Shown piece after piece: positions 19,458 to 29,315 of a stretch of 64,000 nt of DNA (position 1 is the stretch's first letter; each line of letters begins with the position of its first letter). Below the pieces are notes generated by a model. It searched no databases. It saw nothing but the letters and a program-made list of their open reading frames with translations, and was not told the origin of the DNA. This DNA comes from Lachnospiraceae bacterium (lineage in GTDB: Bacteria > Bacillota > Clostridia > Lachnospirales > Lachnospiraceae), in contig SVFF01000009.1 of NCBI GenBank assembly GCA_015057005.1, positions 1 to 64,000 of the forward strand, in the 5' to 3' direction. A program made the translations under genes and the position numbers.

Positions 19458-20057
19458 ATGATTACAGGACAACTGTTGGAAAAAAATGTGAAAACGGATG
19501 CGGAAGAGGGTTTGAGGAAACTGCCGGAAATGGGCAAGAGACTGCGAAAAGTCTGGGAGGAAATGGAGAATGAGATGGAGATGATATTTGATGCTGTTTC
19601 CTATAATGAAAGTCTGGCAAGGACGGCGGTAGCTGCATTTATCACGCCGCTGAATCCCACACTGGACGAGATGGCAGATGTGAAAACCGCAGTTTCCGAG
19701 GCGGTGACCAACGCCATCATCCATGGGTATGGGAATGTGCAGGGATACTGCAGGCATGGAGAGACTTTGCCTTGTCATGAGGAAATTCTGCCCGGCAAGG
19801 TAACGCTCCGCTGCCGGCTGGAAAAAGGTATTTTGTATGTGGATGTGTCAGATCAGGGAAAGGGTATCGACGATATCGATCGGGCAATGGAGCCTTTTTA
19901 CACCTCCAAGCCGGAATTGGAACGCTCCGGCATGGGATTTGCACTGATGGAAGCTTTCATGGATCATCTGGAGGTGGAAAGCAATCCGGGAGAGGGCACT
20001 TGTGTACATATGAAAAAGAAAATGTATACAGGCTCCTGGATGGACAGAGAGGACTAA
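19458..20057 (+). CDS. spoIIAB: Anti-sigma F factor SpoIIAB (start may be internal, ~19563-19566)
   Basis: NPTLDEMADVKTAVSEAVTNAIIHGYG...VSDQGKGIDD...SGMGFALMEAFMD GHKL ATPase motifs. Confidence 0.92.
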   Translation: MITGQLLEKNVKTDAEEGLRKLPEMGKRLRKVWEEMENEMEMIFDAVSYNESLARTAVAAFITPLNPTLDEMADVKTAVSEAVTNAIIHGYGNVQGYCRHGETLPCHEEILPGKVTLRCRLEKGILYVDVSDQGKGIDDIDRAMEPFYTSKPELERSGMGFALMEAFMDHLEVESNPGEGTCVHMKKKMYTGSWMDRED

Positions 20058-20060
20058 AAC

Positions 20061-20825
20061 ATGGAGGAACTGTCAGTACTGATTGAAAAGTCACAGGCGG
20101 GAGATAAAACAGCAAGGGAAGTACTGATAGAGAAGAATTTAGGGTTGATTCATCACATTGTAAGGCGGTTCGCAGGCCGCGGGCATGATCTGGAGGATTT
20201 GTTTCAGGTGGGCTCTATCGGTCTCATGAAGGCCATCGATAAATTTGATTTGAGCCTCCAGGTCCGCTTTTCCACCTACGCTGTGCCTATGATAACGGGA
20301 GAAATCAAGCGCTTTCTTAGGGATGACGGCATGGTAAAGGTGTCCCGCACCATCAAAGAGAATGGTATGCTGATCAGGACTGCCAGGCAGAAGCTTCAGA
20401 CGGCACTGAACAGGGAACCTACTCTGGAGGAACTGGGGCGGGAGACCGGACTTTCCAGAGAAGACATCGTGCTGGCTATGGAGGCCGGTGTAGAGGTGGA
20501 ATCCATCTACAGCGCAGCTTACCAGGATGACGGCAGCGAAATTTACCTGGTGGACAAGGTGGTGCGGGGCGTTTCCGGATCCGTGGGTGCCAGCGCAGGC
20601 CACTATGGTGCCGTGAACACTGATGTGGAAAAGGAAGAATTGTTAAATCATCTGGTGATCAAGCAACTGCTGGACACGCTGGAAGCCAGAGAGCGACGGT
20701 TGATCCATATGCGTTATTTTCAAGGCAAGACCCAGTCCCAGGTGGCCCAGGTGCTGGGCATCAGTCAGGTGCAGGTCAGCAGGCTGGAGAAAAAAATCCT
20801 GCTGCAGCTGCGGCAGATGGTGTGA
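20061..20825 (+). CDS. sigF: Sporulation sigma factor SigF
   Basis: sigma-70 region 2 DLEDLFQVGSIGLMKAIDKFDLSLQVRFSTYAVPMITGEIKRFLRDDG; follows spoIIAB. Confidence 0.93.
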   Translation: MEELSVLIEKSQAGDKTAREVLIEKNLGLIHHIVRRFAGRGHDLEDLFQVGSIGLMKAIDKFDLSLQVRFSTYAVPMITGEIKRFLRDDGMVKVSRTIKENGMLIRTARQKLQTALNREPTLEELGRETGLSREDIVLAMEAGVEVESIYSAAYQDDGSEIYLVDKVVRGVSGSVGASAGHYGAVNTDVEKEELLNHLVIKQLLDTLEARERRLIHMRYFQGKTQSQVAQVLGISQVQVSRLEKKILLQLRQMV

Positions 20826-21053
20826 GATGAGAACGGCCGTGAAATGGTAATAGAAAAATAAAAAAGATTAATATTTCATAAAGAAATAAAAATCGACTTT
20901 TTTTTCCGTATACTTTCGTTTATCATAGAATGTGTAAGAGTCCTATTGATAAAGAAGTATACAATGTAAGGTCGGGATTTTGCGAAAGAGGATCCGGGAG
21001 AAATACGGAGGATTGGTTTTGCAGGAAACGAAGAACACATGAGGAGTGATTGA

Positions 21054-22190
21054 ATGAAGAACAACAAAAGAATGTCTTATGCACTGGCCATTGCCGGGGC
21101 GTTGATGATATTGATTATGGGAATCCTGCTGACAGGGCTGGTGTACAAGGCAGTGACCGGAGGGTTTTCCAAAGATAAGGACAAAGCGGCGCTTTCCGGG
21201 CAGATAACAGGTCAAGACAGCGACGGTACGGAAGGCCAAAACGGCGACCTGATAGAGGACGAGGCGCTGGAACCGGGGAAAGAGACCTATACCCGGAAAG
21301 AGGTGGCAGAACTTTTGCAAGAGGCCCGTGAGAAAGCTGGTAAGGCGGGAACAGAAGGCATCCTGGAGGATATTAAGAGGGTGCTGTCCGGTGGAAGTAT
21401 GACCATGGTGGAAATGCTGCGTCCCTATTATGAGGACGAGATTGTAGTGGTGAGCAGCGGCGCATTTCATTTTGTGCCCATCAACGAAGCTTTGAAGAAA
21501 AATGATTATAAGTCGGAGAATCTGAATATTTTGGAATCCGGCGAGATCCAGTATGTTGAGGATGGTCAGGTGACCTCCCACAAGGGCATTGATGTGTCCA
21601 AATTCCAGGGGGAGATTGACTGGGAGGCTGTGGCTGCGGACGGCGTGGAATTTGCCTTTATCAGAGTGGGCAACAGAGGTTACGGCGCAGAGGGTAAGCT
21701 TTTAGAGGATGACATGTTTGAGACCAATATAGAGGGCGCGCTGCAGGCCGGTATTAAGGTGGGTGTTTACTTCTACACCCAGGCTCTGAATGAGGAGGAA
21801 GTGCTGGCGGAGGCCCAACTGGTGCTTCAAAAGATTGCTCCTTACAAAGTAGAGTGCCCGGTGGTGTTTGACGTGGAGAAGGTAAGCGGTGCCAACGGAC
21901 GTATGAATGCCTTGTCTGCCAAGGATCGAACCGATCTGACGCTGTTATTCTGCGAGACGATTAAGGAAGCTGGCTATGAGCCCATGATCTACTACAACAT
22001 GGAGATGGGCACGTTGATGCTGGAGCTGGAGCGGCTGGAGGAGTATGAGAAGTGGTTTGCTTATTACAATCCGGATTTGTATTATCCTTATGATTATAAA
22101 ATCTGGCAGTACAGTCACAGCGGCAAGGTGAATGGTATTAAGGGTGAAGTTGATATGAACATCAGCTTTGAACCGATATGGGAAGAGTAA
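21054..22190 (+). CDS. Membrane-anchored GH25-family lysozyme-like protein
   Basis: HKGIDVSKFQGEIDWEAVAADGVEFAFIRVGNRGYG...VVFDVEK...IWQYSHSGKVNGIKGEVDMN. Confidence 0.9.
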   Translation: MKNNKRMSYALAIAGALMILIMGILLTGLVYKAVTGGFSKDKDKAALSGQITGQDSDGTEGQNGDLIEDEALEPGKETYTRKEVAELLQEAREKAGKAGTEGILEDIKRVLSGGSMTMVEMLRPYYEDEIVVVSSGAFHFVPINEALKKNDYKSENLNILESGEIQYVEDGQVTSHKGIDVSKFQGEIDWEAVAADGVEFAFIRVGNRGYGAEGKLLEDDMFETNIEGALQAGIKVGVYFYTQALNEEEVLAEAQLVLQKIAPYKVECPVVFDVEKVSGANGRMNALSAKDRTDLTLLFCETIKEAGYEPMIYYNMEMGTLMLELERLEEYEKWFAYYNPDLYYPYDYKIWQYSHSGKVNGIKGEVDMNISFEPIWEE

Positions 22191-22379
22191 TTGTCAGAGA
22201 TATACTCCCAGGTGATTTGCAAGTAAAGTGATAATAAAGAGTCTGTGTGTTCGCAAGATTGTGGACATGCGGACTCTTTGTTCATTTTGAAAGAATCTTC
22301 TTGCATAGAATGGCCGGTTTTGCAAAAACTATTTTCAGTGTATTAAGGAAAGGCGTGCTGAGGGGAGAATGAAAGTCCT

Positions 22380-22892
22380 ATGAAATATTTCTTTTTGATA
22401 TTTGGGGGTGTAAGTTTCGGTTTGCTGTCCGCAGCAGGAGTCTTTACGGTACTTACCGCTGTGGGGTTGGTCCCCCGGTTTGCGGGCAAGACCCACACCG
22501 CCCGGAAAATATTGCTCTTTGAAGAGATGGTGATCATAGGGACGATTCTGGGGTGTTTTGTCAGTATCTTCCCGGAATATTGTCAGGTGGGGGGGCTGTT
22601 GGAACGGGCTGGAACATTGATAGGGCAAACTGATGTGCAATGGGCAGCCGCGGTGAGCGGTCTGCAGCAGACGATTGGCGTGCTTTTGCAGGGAGGTTTC
22701 GGTCTCTTTGCAGGAATGTTCATCGGCTGTCTGGCTCTGGCTATTGCGGAAATGCTGGACAGTGTCCCTATTTTTGCCAGGCGGATCGGTTTCAGGCATG
22801 GCATTGGTCTGGCTATTTTCAGTGTGGCCATAGGAAAGCTGGTGGGGTCACTATGGTATTTCTGGGTAGAACTTCATCAGGTGATGGAGTAA
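22380..22892 (+). CDS. spoVAB: Stage V sporulation protein AB
   Basis: FGGVSFGLLSAAGVFTVLTAVGLVPRF...GMFIGCLALAIAEMLDSVPIFARRIG...GKLVGSLWYF resembles SpoVAB. Confidence 0.8.
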   Translation: MKYFFLIFGGVSFGLLSAAGVFTVLTAVGLVPRFAGKTHTARKILLFEEMVIIGTILGCFVSIFPEYCQVGGLLERAGTLIGQTDVQWAAAVSGLQQTIGVLLQGGFGLFAGMFIGCLALAIAEMLDSVPIFARRIGFRHGIGLAIFSVAIGKLVGSLWYFWVELHQVME

Positions 22893-22976
22893 GGTGTAAA
22901 GGCAGAATGGTACGTATCGTATGAGTGGCAAAGCAGCAGCTACTGCTATCCGGCGGCAGGCGCAGGAAGGCTGGAT

Positions 22977-23633
22977 GTGAGGGAGAATAGGGCAGGTGAA
23001 ATCGTGAAAAGTGCAACAGTATATTTCCGGTGCGAGCGCTATGTGGAGGTACAGACTGAGGATGTGTTTTTAAAGGACTTGGGCAGCTTACAGTGTACAG
23101 ACCGAAACGTGGCGGCAAAATTAAAATCCCTGAAGGTGAAGCACTTCCCAAAAGATAAGCAAAAGCGGTGTGTGATCAGCAGTGTACGCCTGATCGCACT
23201 GATGGAGAAAATGTGTCCGGACATTCAGGTTCAGTGGCTGGGCGAGCCGGATGTGCTGGTGGAGTGGGGGGATGTGAACAAACATAAGGCCTGGCAGCAG
23301 TGGTGCAAGATAGTGCTGGTGTGCATGGTGAGCCTGTGTGGTACTGCTTTTACCATCATGGCTTACCACAACGATATCGGTATCAATGATATTTTTGAAG
23401 AAGTGTACCGTCTGGTGATGAACAGGGAACCTCAGGGACCCAATGTATTGGAGGTGTCCTATTCCATCGGTTTGGCACTGGGGATTATCGTTTTCTACAA
23501 TCATATCGGCGGCAGAAGGCTGACCAAAGATCCAACCCCCATCGAGGTGGCCATGCACAATTACGAGTATGATGTGGATATGACACTGATTGAACTGGCG
23601 GATCGTGAAGGAGTGGAAGAAGATGTAACATGA
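22977..23633 (+). CDS. spoVAA: Stage V sporulation protein AA (start probably internal GTG/ATG)
   Basis: MAYHNDIGINDIFEEVYRLVMNREPQGPNVLEVSYSIGLALGIIVFYNHIGGRRLTKDPTPIEVAMHNYE resembles SpoVAA. Confidence 0.82.
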   Translation: MRENRAGEIVKSATVYFRCERYVEVQTEDVFLKDLGSLQCTDRNVAAKLKSLKVKHFPKDKQKRCVISSVRLIALMEKMCPDIQVQWLGEPDVLVEWGDVNKHKAWQQWCKIVLVCMVSLCGTAFTIMAYHNDIGINDIFEEVYRLVMNREPQGPNVLEVSYSIGLALGIIVFYNHIGGRRLTKDPTPIEVAMHNYEYDVDMTLIELADREGVEEDVT

Positions 23634-23656
23634 GCAGTGCAAAGGGAGGACAAAAC

Positions 23657-24115
23657 ATGGACCAATGGAAACAAAAGGAATTTCAAAAATTAGTTAAGGA
23701 TGTAACGCCCACACACAATCTGGGCCTGCAGATGCTGAAAGCATTCCTTGTAGGAGGATCCATCTGCACCTTGGGGCAGTTTATTTTAAATATAGCCGGG
23801 AATAACTTCGGTCTGGACAAGGAAGCGGCGGGCAGCTGGTGCTCCCTGATATTGGTATTGTTATCAGTGTTGCTCACCGGCCTGAATATTTATCCGGGGA
23901 TTGCCAAGTGGGGCGGTGCCGGCGCGCTGGTGCCCATTACCGGCTTCGCCAACTCCGTGTCGGCCCCGGCCATTGAGTACCAGAAGGAGGGGCAGGTGTT
24001 CGGCATCGGATGTAAGATATTTACCATTGCCGGGCCCGTGATCCTCTACGGCATCCTGGCAAGCTGGGGGCTGGGAGTGGTCTATTGGATCGGGAAGATG
24101 ATGGGTTTGATGTAG
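23657..24115 (+). CDS. spoVAC: Stage V sporulation protein AC
   Basis: KAFLVGGSICTLGQFILN...GGAGALVPITGFANSVSAPAIEYQKEG. Confidence 0.9.
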   Translation: MDQWKQKEFQKLVKDVTPTHNLGLQMLKAFLVGGSICTLGQFILNIAGNNFGLDKEAAGSWCSLILVLLSVLLTGLNIYPGIAKWGGAGALVPITGFANSVSAPAIEYQKEGQVFGIGCKIFTIAGPVILYGILASWGLGVVYWIGKMMGLM

Positions 24116-24211
24116 TGGTGTCGGGTGCGGACCGATCGAACTAAACAGAAGTCATAAACAGTGAAAAAATGGAAACGGCAAAAGTGGAAGTGCAAAATAA
24201 GGGAGAAGAAT

Positions 24212-24433
24212 ATGAAGGACAGAGAAAAATTGAGTGGTCAAAGTAACAGATGGAACATTGGAGCAGGAGGCGACCTTCCCATCGGTTTTGGTTTGTCCCT
24301 GGCGGTCAACGAAAAGGCCATGGCAGCATTTGCCGGCATGAATGATGAGCAAAAGCAGGCAACAGTGGAGAAAAGCCGCACCATGCACACCAGGGTGGAT
24401 ATGGAGAACTTTGTGAACAGTTTGGGTGAGTAA
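24212..24433 (+). CDS. Small conserved-type hypothetical protein (LPxGFGxxLAxNxxAM)
   Basis: MKDREKLSGQ...DLPIGFGLSLAVNEKAMAAFAGMNDEQKQATVEKSRTMHTRVDMENFVNSL. Confidence 0.6.
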   Translation: MKDREKLSGQSNRWNIGAGGDLPIGFGLSLAVNEKAMAAFAGMNDEQKQATVEKSRTMHTRVDMENFVNSLGE

Positions 24434-24554: not shown

Positions 24555-26408
24555 ATGAAACAGTGGCAACTTTACACATCCAATGAACTGAAACCCCAGG
24601 GGTGGCTTAAGCGTCAGCTGGAGATCCAGGCTGAGGGATTAAGCGGCAACCTGGACAAAATGTGGCCGGATGTAAAGGACAGCGCCTGGATCGGCGGTGA
24701 CCGGGAGGGCTGGGAGAGAGTACCTTATTGGCTGGACGGTTTCATTCCTCTTGCTTATTTGCTGGAAAATGAGGACATGATAAGCAGAGCCCGCAAATAT
24801 ATTGACGCAATCATTGCTGGACAAAAGGAAGACGGCTGGATCTGCCCCTGCAGGGAAGATGAAATAGAAAAGTACGATACCTGGGCGGTACAGCTGATCA
24901 CCAAAGTCTTGGTGGTTTATTATGAGTGCTCAAAGGATGAAAGGATTCCCGGTGTTGTGTATAATGCGCTTAAGAATTACTATGAGCTGCTCAAAGCCGA
25001 GAAGATCCGACTGTTCGATTGGGGAAAGTTCCGCTGGTTCGAGGCTTTTATCGCAATCAATTTTACATATGAAAGATATCAGGAGAATTGGCTTCTGGAA
25101 TTGGCCAAGCTTATGAGGGAGCAGGGAGCAAATTATAATGATTATATTGAGTCCTGGAAGCGCCCTTTAAATAAGTGGACATTCTATACCCACATTGTAA
25201 ATCTCGGCATGATGCTGAAGACCGAAGCGGTTAGCTGTGATCTGTTGGGAGAGGAATATACAGACAATGCAGAGTTTCTGCGAAGCATCCTGGAAAAATA
25301 TAACGGAACCGTTTATGAGAGCTTCACCGGAGATGAGTGCCTTTCCGGCCTGAGTCCCGTCCAGGGAACGGAGCTTTGTGCCATCGTGGAGCAGATGTAT
25401 TCTTATGAACTCTTATACGCGTACACCGGCGACAGCAAGTGGGCTGAGCGCCTGGAAGTGCTGGCTTTCAATGCGCTCCCGGCTACTATCAGTGACGATA
25501 TGTGGGTGCATCAGTACGTGCAGTTGAGCAATCAGATTGCCTGTCAGCGTTTTCCGGGCCGTTCCCAGTTCAGAACCAATGGACCGGACGCCCACATGTT
25601 TGGTCTGGAGCCTAATTTCGGCTGCTGCACCGCCAACTTTAATCAGGGCTGGCCTAAATTCGCCCTTTCAGCGTTTATGCACAATGAAGATACCATTATA
25701 AACTCCGTGATGCTTCCTTCTGAGTTGAAGACAGAGGGCGTGAATATCCTGCTGGAGACCAATTATCCTTTTGAAAACGCGATGACATATAAGATCAATG
25801 CGGAGAAAGAGTTTTCTTTCAAAGTCCGTGTTCCTTCTTTTGCACAGAAGCTTACTATAACGAGCAAGGGAGCAGGCTGTGAAAAGGATATGACAAGAGA
25901 TATGACAAGGGAAAGCGAAAAGGCTGCAGGAGAGCTTACTTTTGAAATTAAGGCCGGTGAAACTGAGATTCACATTGCTTTTGAGACCGTGCCATATTTC
26001 CGAAAGAGACCTCATGAATTGAATGCAGTACAGTGGGGTTCCCTGCTATTTTCTGTTCCTGTTAGCTTCGACAAGAAAATTATTGAGTATGAAAGAGATG
26101 GCGTGGAGAGAAAATTCCCTTACTGCGATTATGAGTTTATTCCTACCTCTGATTGGAATTATGCTTATTGCAGTGAAGAGCTGGAAGTGTGCCGGAAGGG
26201 CGTCGGTACTGTTCCTTTCTCAGGAACCAATCCTCCTGTGGTCGTAAAGACCAAAGTCCAAAAGATTGACTGGGGTCTGGCAGATGGTTTTGATACTGTT
26301 TGCGCGAAGAAACCGGAGTCTACAGAACCGATTTCTGAGATGATGGAGATGGAGCTTCATCCTTATGGCTGCGCGAAGCTTAGGATGACGGAGCTGCCGA
26401 AGCTGTAA
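24555..26408 (+). CDS. GH127-family (DUF1680) beta-L-arabinofuranosidase-like
   Basis: LSGNLDKMWPDVKDSAWIGGDREGWERVPYWLDGFIPLAYLL...GLEPNFGCCTANFNQGWPKF. Confidence 0.9.
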   Translation: MKQWQLYTSNELKPQGWLKRQLEIQAEGLSGNLDKMWPDVKDSAWIGGDREGWERVPYWLDGFIPLAYLLENEDMISRARKYIDAIIAGQKEDGWICPCREDEIEKYDTWAVQLITKVLVVYYECSKDERIPGVVYNALKNYYELLKAEKIRLFDWGKFRWFEAFIAINFTYERYQENWLLELAKLMREQGANYNDYIESWKRPLNKWTFYTHIVNLGMMLKTEAVSCDLLGEEYTDNAEFLRSILEKYNGTVYESFTGDECLSGLSPVQGTELCAIVEQMYSYELLYAYTGDSKWAERLEVLAFNALPATISDDMWVHQYVQLSNQIACQRFPGRSQFRTNGPDAHMFGLEPNFGCCTANFNQGWPKFALSAFMHNEDTIINSVMLPSELKTEGVNILLETNYPFENAMTYKINAEKEFSFKVRVPSFAQKLTITSKGAGCEKDMTRDMTRESEKAAGELTFEIKAGETEIHIAFETVPYFRKRPHELNAVQWGSLLFSVPVSFDKKIIEYERDGVERKFPYCDYEFIPTSDWNYAYCSEELEVCRKGVGTVPFSGTNPPVVVKTKVQKIDWGLADGFDTVCAKKPESTEPISEMMEMELHPYGCAKLRMTELPKL

Positions 26409-26435: not shown

Positions 26436-26465
26436 AATAAGGAGCAGCAGGTGCTGCTCCTTATT
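26436..26465. repeat. 30 bp perfect palindrome
   Basis: AATAAGGAGCAGCA-GG-TGCTGCTCCTTATT between GH127 and the HTH-GH51 gene. Confidence 0.85.
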
Positions 26466-26483: not shown

Positions 26484-26513
26484 ACGTCGATTGACGTCCC
26501 CTGCTTAAGGGAC
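26484..26513. promoter_or_regulatory. Candidate operator: two nested inverted repeats upstream of HTH-GH51 gene
   Basis: ACGTC-gatt-GACGT (26484-26497) and GTCCC-ctgcttaa-GGGAC (26496-26513). Confidence 0.45.
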
Positions 26514-26568
26514 TACAATAATCGTGTACATGTGCAACTGGCATCTTGATATCAATGAGGGCAAACAT

Positions 26569-28710
26569 ATGAATACACAAAAGCTGGCTTCCTGTATAGC
26601 GGAATATCGAAAAAAATCAGGCATGACACAACGTGAATTTGCAGACCATTTAGGGGTTACTGCCAAGGCTGTATCCAAGTGGGAGACGGGAGTGAATGTC
26701 CCGGACGTTTCTTTGTTGGCAATGATCATTCGTACTCTGGGGATTCCTGTGGAAATATTATTAGAAGATGAGCCTGATTCGGAGCAGGAATTTTTCAGCA
26801 GTTTGTTGTTAAACCCTACTTATCCGAAGGAGAATCTTATGAATACCAATCAAGCCTTTGAAACAATTCAGATCAATCTGGATGGAAGCGGTCCGTTGTC
26901 TCCCTATGTCTTCGGACATAACCTGGAGCATACCAGAGCAAGTATCCACACAGGATTAAGTGCCCAGATGCTGCGCAACCGGAAATTTGCAGGAAAACCT
27001 GCAAAAAATGACGGATGCCCAGCTTTTTGGTTTCCTGTTGGCGGAAAAGATGTATTTTTAGACTTGTATATGGCCCACCAGGAAAAGAGCTATACCAAAC
27101 ATGCTGTCGGTAATAAAATGCGCCGCTGGAGCGAGATCCAGTGCCTGGGAGTACAAAATTTATTTGGTGAAAAGCTTTGCGGTATCGGACAATCAGGAAT
27201 TGTTTTAACCAAGAATACAACTTATGAGCTCAGAACGGTTACCCGGTGTGACCGGGAGGCGGAAATTTGTGTCAGATTGCAGGATGCCGCCGGCAATGAA
27301 ATATATGCAGAGGAAAAGCTTTCCCTGGTGCCCGGCGACTGGCAGGTTTGTGAGTTTACATTAACTTCCGGGCAGGATGTGGCAGATGCCTGCGTTACAT
27401 TCGCTTTTAAAGAGAAGACAAGAGTACTGTTTGGCGCCCTGTCAATGATGCATGCGGATCATTTTCACGGTATGCGCACGGACGTTATTGCGCATCTGAA
27501 AGAGATGGGTGTAAGTGTTCTGCGCTGGCCCGGTGGTAATTTTGCCGGGGAGTATCGTTGGCAGGATGGTCTTCTTCCCGTTGACATGCGTGCGCCTTTG
27601 CAGGCTTATATGGAGATGGAGACACAGACCTACAGCAACGGTTATGATTTCCACGAAATCGGTACCGACGAGTTTATTGCGCTGTGTAAGGAAATTGGTG
27701 CAGAACCTTATATTACCATCAATGCTGTGTGGAATACCTCCGAAGAAAACGCTGCCTGGGTAGAATACTGCAACGGCTCTGAAGAAACCGAATATGGCAA
27801 GATCCGCGCGGAGCGTGGTCATAAAGAACCTTACAACGTAAAATTCTGGGCGCTCGGAAACGAGATGGGCTTTGGGCATATGGAAGGCCCTAAGACGCCG
27901 GAACAGTATGTGGCTCTGGTAAGACCTCATGCAAAGGCCATGCTTGCAGTGTCCCCTGATATCCAGCTGTTTGTATCAGGTCCTTATCCCAATGCCAACT
28001 GGGTAGAGCATGCGGCAATTCCCTTGTCCGATCAGGCAAGCTTCGTTTCGCTTCATCATTATGAGGAGGTATACAGAGATTATACTACCCCGGAAGCCAT
28101 CGAAGAAACCTGCCGTCAGCTCCTCGGCAAGCCCAAAGGGGTGCAGGAGATGATAAGGGAAATGAGAGGATTAATGGGTGACAATGCCCATATCGCTTAC
28201 GATGAGTGGAACTGCTGGTATGCATGGCACCGTGCCTCTAATGTGCTGGATGGTATTTTTGCTGCCAAGATGCTGCATATGTTTATGTATGAATCCCAGA
28301 CCTCCGATGTGCCTATCTGCTGCTATTTCCAGCCCGTTGGAGAAGGTGCGATAGAGGTTGATCCTACAGAGAGCAGACTGACTGCCATTGGCCAGGTATT
28401 TGCCCTGTTAAAAGATCACATGGGCGGCAATCTTTGTCAGATGGTTTCTATGGGGGAATTTAATAGTGCAGCAACCATCAAAGACGAAATCCTGACGGTT
28501 ACGCTGATCAATACGGATTTGTATGATGCTAAGCCGGCAGTGATCAATATAGAGGGCAAAGTTTGCAGTGCAGAGATTTTGGAATCGGAAAGCGTACTTC
28601 CCTATACTTATTTTACAAAGAGAGATCTGGCAACAACTTCTGAAAATGGTCTGTTAAAGGCAGTATTGCCGCCGCACAGTGTTGCGAAGATTTGTGTGGC
28701 TGTGGTATAA
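26569..28710 (+). CDS. XRE-family HTH domain fused to GH51-type alpha-L-arabinofuranosidase
   Basis: N-term KLASCIAEYRKKSGMTQREFADHLGVTAKAVSKWETGVNVPDVSLLAMIIRTLGI, then GPLSPYVFGHNLEHTRASI...VLRWPGGNFAGEYRW...ALGNEMG...YDEWNCWY in one uninterrupted frame. Confidence 0.9.
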   Translation: MNTQKLASCIAEYRKKSGMTQREFADHLGVTAKAVSKWETGVNVPDVSLLAMIIRTLGIPVEILLEDEPDSEQEFFSSLLLNPTYPKENLMNTNQAFETIQINLDGSGPLSPYVFGHNLEHTRASIHTGLSAQMLRNRKFAGKPAKNDGCPAFWFPVGGKDVFLDLYMAHQEKSYTKHAVGNKMRRWSEIQCLGVQNLFGEKLCGIGQSGIVLTKNTTYELRTVTRCDREAEICVRLQDAAGNEIYAEEKLSLVPGDWQVCEFTLTSGQDVADACVTFAFKEKTRVLFGALSMMHADHFHGMRTDVIAHLKEMGVSVLRWPGGNFAGEYRWQDGLLPVDMRAPLQAYMEMETQTYSNGYDFHEIGTDEFIALCKEIGAEPYITINAVWNTSEENAAWVEYCNGSEETEYGKIRAERGHKEPYNVKFWALGNEMGFGHMEGPKTPEQYVALVRPHAKAMLAVSPDIQLFVSGPYPNANWVEHAAIPLSDQASFVSLHHYEEVYRDYTTPEAIEETCRQLLGKPKGVQEMIREMRGLMGDNAHIAYDEWNCWYAWHRASNVLDGIFAAKMLHMFMYESQTSDVPICCYFQPVGEGAIEVDPTESRLTAIGQVFALLKDHMGGNLCQMVSMGEFNSAATIKDEILTVTLINTDLYDAKPAVINIEGKVCSAEILESESVLPYTYFTKRDLATTSENGLLKAVLPPHSVAKICVAVV

Positions 28711-28720
28711 TCTAAACAGC

Positions 28721-28767
28721 ATCAAAGAAAATCAAGCGACGCAAAGCGGCATTTGATTTTCTGATGC
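28721..28767 (+). terminator. Terminator-like hairpin after GH51 gene
   Basis: GCATCAaaGAAAATCAA...TTGATTTTCtGATGC. Confidence 0.5.
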
Positions 28768-28801
28768 GTTTAACGAGCAAACCGTCTGCGAAGCAGGCAG
28801 T

Positions 28802-28877
28802 GAGTGCGAAGCACGAGTTTGCGAGTCTACGGAGAAGGAAGCAAACGCAAGAGTGCGAAGCACGAGTTTGCGAGTCT
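28802..28877. repeat. Two copies of a 27 bp direct repeat
   Basis: GAGTGCGAAGCACGAGTTTGCGAGTCT at 28802-28828 and 28851-28877. Confidence 0.9.
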
Positions 28878-28909
28878 GTTAATCAATTCATACAAAAGAG
28901 GGAGAATAA

Positions 28910-29315
28910 CATGACCAAAAAAGAATTAGCAATCAGTCTGCATGATAGAGGATTTAACTGTGCACAGTCCGTTGCCTGCGCTTTTGCAGAGGAGATCGGT
29001 GTGGCAGAAGAGGTTCTGTTTGCGGCAAATGAAGGCTTTGGCCTTGGTATGGGTGCCATGGCGGGTACCTGCGGTGCTGTTTCCGGCGCCATCATGCTGG
29101 CCGGTTTTAAGAACAGCTGCGCAGATCCTGCACAGCCCAGAACAAAGGCGTCCACCTACAAGCTGGCAGCAGAGATCACCAAGCAGTTCGCGGAGCAGAA
29201 CGGTTCCCTGGTTTGCCGCGAGATTAAGGGTGTTGACACCGGTAAGGTGCTGAGAAGCTGCCCTGACTGCATTATGGATGCAGTAGAGATCGCAGAGAAA
29301 GTGCTGGGACTGTAA
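28910..29315 (+). CDS. C_GCAxxG_C_C-type small redox protein
   Basis: FNCAQSVACAFAEE...GMGAMAGTCGAVSGAIMLAG...CREIKG...SCPDCIMDAVEI. Confidence 0.85.

Follow-up and report, generated by a model that had tools for sequence, protein, structure and literature searches.

A gene joining an XRE-type helix-turn-helix to a GH51-type arabinofuranosidase in a Lachnospiraceae genome, read as a putative trigger enzyme

The window analysed here, a stretch of 64,000 nucleotides from a Lachnospiraceae bacterium, contains a gene in which an XRE (Cro/C1-type) helix-turn-helix (HTH) domain is joined in frame to a GH51-type enzyme. Judged by its sequence, the XRE–GH51 gene is a real and rare fusion, and its architecture is not an isolated accident. 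Our best reading, drawn by analogy and held with moderate confidence, is that it encodes a trigger enzyme; the product would be a self-repressing arabinofuranosidase that is released by its substrate, possibly made alongside a second product without the HTH. If this holds, a glycoside hydrolase would sense its own substrate and control its own gene, which would make sugar sensing very compact, and the protein would be a ready-made biosensor part. Proteins that combine an enzyme with a DNA-binding domain are a known kind, and in this respect the XRE–GH51 gene is not a new one. Regulators of the ROK type, such as NagC and Mlc, fuse an HTH to a sugar-binding enzyme fold and are mostly not active kinases; they differ from the window protein in HTH class and enzyme fold, and the active site of the window protein is complete. 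Trigger enzymes described as carrying a DNA-binding domain include PutA, BirA and NadR (PMC8249747, which cites Commichau and Stulke 2008; PutA and BirA also in PMC6978683). As in these three, a metabolic enzyme and a DNA-binding domain, the defining pair of such a trigger enzyme, are found on one polypeptide in the window protein, and the likeness makes regulation of its own pathway the expected outcome. Nevertheless, PutA, BirA and NadR are not glycoside hydrolases, and their regulatory role was established experimentally, whereas that of the window protein is deduced from sequence. No publication describing a fusion of a glycoside hydrolase with an XRE domain was found in a literature search that was thin on subscription journals.

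The frame runs without interruption from 26569 to 28710 (+ strand) and translates into 713 aa. The sequence-only reading had claimed a single uninterrupted frame for both the HTH and the GH51 enzyme, and this is borne out, with both domains matched in profile searches. The XRE domain (residues 1 to about 68) and a linker of about 22 aa occupy 26569..26838 (+). The Pfam HTH_3 profile matches residues 10–63 with an E value of 1e-12 and 48.3 bits, against a curated cut-off of 23. A structure predicted from a two-sequence alignment places helices at residues 3–17, 21–28, 32–39 and 47–57 of the HTH region, but the model (mean pLDDT 45, pTM 0.35) is too poor for fold comparison, and the placement of the HTH relative to the enzyme lies beyond its resolution. 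The HTH is intact in sequence, and sequence-specific DNA binding is predicted for it. The GH51-type part (26839..28710, +; residues ~110–713) comprises N-terminal strands with a CBM-like insert, followed by the catalytic barrel. It matches the Pfam ASD1_dom profile at 32.2 bits (cut-off 22.2), and in a search of the sequences of solved structures its best GH51 match is 3s2c (E 6e-51, residues 299–654). The profile of the arabinosylfuranosidase ArfA, NF051901, is matched at 151.8 bits (E 3e-44), and the window protein differs from ArfA in falling below the equivalog cut-off of 625.

The WPGGNF, GNEMG and DEWNCWY motifs named in the sequence-only reading are all present in the frame. E432 in GNE and E546 in DEWN align with their counterparts in 3s2c; from established GH51 knowledge, we take the former motif to hold the acid/base Glu and the latter the nucleophile Glu. 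These two residues, together with R319, N324, N431, H496 and Y498, are invariant in the alignment of the five known members of the enzyme subgroup to which the protein belongs, and the enzyme is therefore predicted to be active as an arabinofuranosidase. The catalytic barrel, the two glutamates and other active-site residues are common to the window protein and the GH51 alpha-L-arabinofuranosidases 3s2c, 4atw, 3ug3 and 1pz3, from which it differs by about 90 extra N-terminal residues with the HTH and by the additional N-terminal insert. By eye, the sequence has no apparent signal peptide, and the best explanation of the enzyme part is a complete, cytoplasmic GH51-type arabinofuranosidase.

The same architecture is found in a second genus of the family. 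The protein of G217 (L010) has 694 aa and the same domain order, and it is 44% identical overall to the window protein. Conservation across species had been proposed as support for a real fusion; the architecture recurs at this distance but is not widely conserved, most known subgroup members being unfused (two fused versus three unfused), and the XRE–GH51 fusion is rare among them. The existence of the second fused genome also bears on whether two separate genes were joined by an assembly or sequencing error, which we regard as extremely improbable. The window genome is a draft (26 contigs, 85.8% complete), and no near relative carrying the locus was found, but the locus lies well within a 91-kb contig, and G217, an independent genome, joins the two domains in frame in the same order through a different linker; this explanation was set aside because of that genome. 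About 1.5 kb downstream of the G217 fusion gene lies a gene for a separate AraC-type regulator, and the fused HTH therefore need not be the sole control there.

The unfused members occur in varied settings. That of G253 (L011) lies downstream of ABC-transporter genes, that of a Lentisphaeria MAG (L001) has a gene for an AraC-type regulator, as read from its translation, just upstream on the other strand, and that of G466 (L049) adjoins a GH28/pectate-lyase-like gene. No XRE-type HTH was found around any of these three in the retrieved stretches, nor in those around distant, conventional GH51 loci. Also near the G253 gene, beside transporter genes, is a 966-aa frame with two sulfatase-type matches (L066:3772-6672). 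Relatives were sought with the fused protein or its enzyme part as query in overlapping draws of genomes (family, 397; G217 relatives, 41; class, 391; genus, 61; G466 family, 16; order, 392; phylum, 349; G253 genus, 2), of which the large ones score few candidates per genome, and members could be missed. At the cut-offs used, these draws gave no additional close subgroup members, and fused relatives close enough for testing selection on the HTH were not found. The plasmid search returned distant relatives only, none of which reached 80% query coverage, and a search of viral contigs returned one distant relative (29%) without an XRE-type HTH.

A feature absent from the earlier reading is an internal start. 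The HTH start, ATG 26569, has GAGG 8 nt upstream, and the mechanical open reading frame allows a possible earlier start at GTG 26524. Among the 51 in-frame start codons, only ATG 26839 is preceded by a Shine–Dalgarno core of at least 5 at proper spacing (GAAGGAG-6 nt-ATG, 26826..26841, +), and it would yield a putative 623-aa enzyme without the HTH. Since this strongest Shine–Dalgarno sequence stands where the unfused relatives start in the subgroup alignment, free enzyme may also be made; ATG 26839 either survives from the ancestral gene as a relict start or gives the 623-aa enzyme beside the fusion, and the HTH-bearing form could be a minor product. In L010, the HTH start has a consensus AGGAGG 7 nt upstream, and no Shine–Dalgarno sequence precedes any start codon in the linker. 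The full-length form alone is therefore likely in G217, and the internal start is not fixed in the architecture.

These starts bear directly on an alternative that we consider unlikely, in which the gene would serve mainly as an ordinary GH51 gene expressed from 26839, and the HTH frame would stem from an upstream XRE gene that recently became joined in frame through loss of its stop and would contribute little or nothing in the fused form. The position of the frame's best Shine–Dalgarno sequence favours it, as does the absence of an XRE–GH51 gene from all 60 sampled congeners, and the two fused HTH domains are not clearly related by common descent. They are 37.5% identical; for each of them, several other XRE proteins of the window genome are better-scoring matches than its counterpart, and 13 of the 14 inner branches of the HTH phylogeny are open. 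In the enzyme tree, built from five long-branched members, L049, which is unfused, clusters with the fused L010 (support 96/94), and a constraint grouping both fused proteins is weakly rejected (p-AU 0.036). Since neither HTH is the other's nearest relative and L010 clusters with an unfused enzyme, two separate fusions are plausible; one fusion with a later loss would fit these sequences as well. Two separate fusions, if true, would argue for function. Against a functionless join, the second genus has the architecture without an internal start, an HTH scoring 48 bits is undecayed, and the unfused relatives have no XRE-type gene beside them in the retrieved stretches.

For the trigger-enzyme reading, a candidate site of control lies directly upstream of the fusion gene. 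A predicted sigma-70 promoter, TTGACG-N17-TACAAT (26491..26519, +), matches the consensus at 10 of 12 positions, a consensus match only. Two inverted repeats touch it: ACGTC-N4-GACGT (26484..26497) overlaps the –35 region and is not above chance, and GTCCC-N8-GGGAC (26496..26513) lies in the promoter spacer as a candidate autoregulatory operator. The inverted repeats claimed earlier at 26484–26513 are thus present, but they carry little weight as operators by number; repeats of such size occur in shuffled stretches of equal length at a mean of 0.82, with at least one in 55%, against two observed. GTCCC-N8-GGGAC has a single exact copy in the 2.67-Mb genome, and its pattern is not enriched genome-wide, as it occurs with at most one mismatch at 35 places versus 134 for the reversed control pattern. 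The palindrome upstream of the L010 gene, CAACC-N7-GGTTG (465–481), is unlike that of the window and is also of chance-level size. The position of the spacer palindrome is suggestive, and statistical significance is absent. Further upstream, between a GH127-like gene and the fusion gene, is a terminator-like hairpin with a perfect 13-bp stem and a 4-nt loop (26436..26465, +). This 30-nt palindrome, 3' of the upstream gene, falls within the probe that had been proposed for an EMSA.

GH51 enzymes are typically hexamers. In the mechanism that we propose, an oligomer without substrate would present paired HTH domains and repress its own promoter at the spacer palindrome. Binding or turnover of arabino-oligosaccharides would alter the oligomer and release the DNA, so that enzyme would be made when substrate is present. 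The internal start at 26839 may supply HTH-free enzyme, by which catalysis could outrun repression. DNA binding, the target, the ligand effect, the oligomeric state and the existence of two products are all deduced here. The trigger-enzyme reading fits the intact HTH and catalytic parts, the promoter-like site of the gene itself and the further XRE–enzyme fusions of the same genome. It is also conceivable, but improbable, that the HTH binds DNA elsewhere and that the enzyme part is only a sensor or oligomerisation scaffold, the protein acting mainly as a one-component regulator for arabinan genes other than its own. XRE domains with diverse C-terminal parts are common in the window genome, and the fusion gene stands alone behind the hairpin, as would suit such a regulator. 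However, the protein keeps all GH51 active-site residues, which a pure sensor would not need, and the genome has no further exact operator-like copies.

Inspection of the other XRE proteins of the window genome revealed at least five more XRE–enzyme fusions, at least six in total, each of the five with HTH_3 and an enzyme domain above cut-off. The enzymes are a PfkB kinase (L008:1501-2712), a BadF/BcrA-type kinase (L079:609-1733), an APH-type phosphotransferase (L007:1501-2775), a phosphoribosyltransferase (L082:1508-2296) and a dCMP deaminase (L087:1454-2158). Like the window protein, all five have an N-terminal XRE domain of about 65–70 aa followed by a whole enzyme; unlike it, they carry different enzymes, and no glycoside hydrolase is among the other fusions examined. 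For the PfkB and BadF fusions, the relatives in the family sample align with the enzyme part only, and no XRE-type HTH was found near those retrieved. With five more fusions and these HTH-free relatives, the joining of XRE domains to enzymes thus looks recurrent here. A broader proposal, which we offer only tentatively, is that this lineage repeatedly adds XRE domains to whole metabolic enzymes, giving a self-regulating class gated by substrate, that it has done so with GH51 at least twice independently, and that the internal start of the window gene would then give a repressor-enzyme together with free enzyme. The set of fusions in one genome makes it testable whether this family recurrently uses such fusions to link enzymes to promoters.

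The gene upstream of the hairpin encodes a 617-aa GH127-like protein of the beta-L-arabinofuranosidase type (24555..26408, +), matched by Pfam in its catalytic domain (E 8e-10) and middle domain (E 9e-6), with no signal peptide apparent by eye. It is likely a partner of the fusion enzyme, probably as a separate transcription unit, and by analogy it would fit arabinan use. Its family scores are weak, and it falls far short of the cut-off for aceric acid hydrolase; the protein is divergent and possibly has another specificity. In the Roseburia arabinan locus Ros-8, GH51 and GH127 genes also stand together, accompanied by genes for an ABC transporter and for a separate regulator of the TetR type (PMC5320581). 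The window locus differs in that the HTH lies within the enzyme and no adjacent transporter operon was seen. Directly upstream of the GH127–GH51 pair, at 19458–24433, are an ATPase/sigma factor pair and then SpoVAB, SpoVAA and SpoVAC, with a GH25-type gene among these sporulation genes; SpoVAD, which usually follows SpoVAC, is not obvious at this locus. On the 3' side of the fusion gene, 28708–29315 holds a gene of the C_GCAxxG_C_C redox family; its real start is probably an ATG near 28926, preceded by a stretch in which the repeated sequence GCGAAGCACGAGTTTGCGAGTCT occurs twice.
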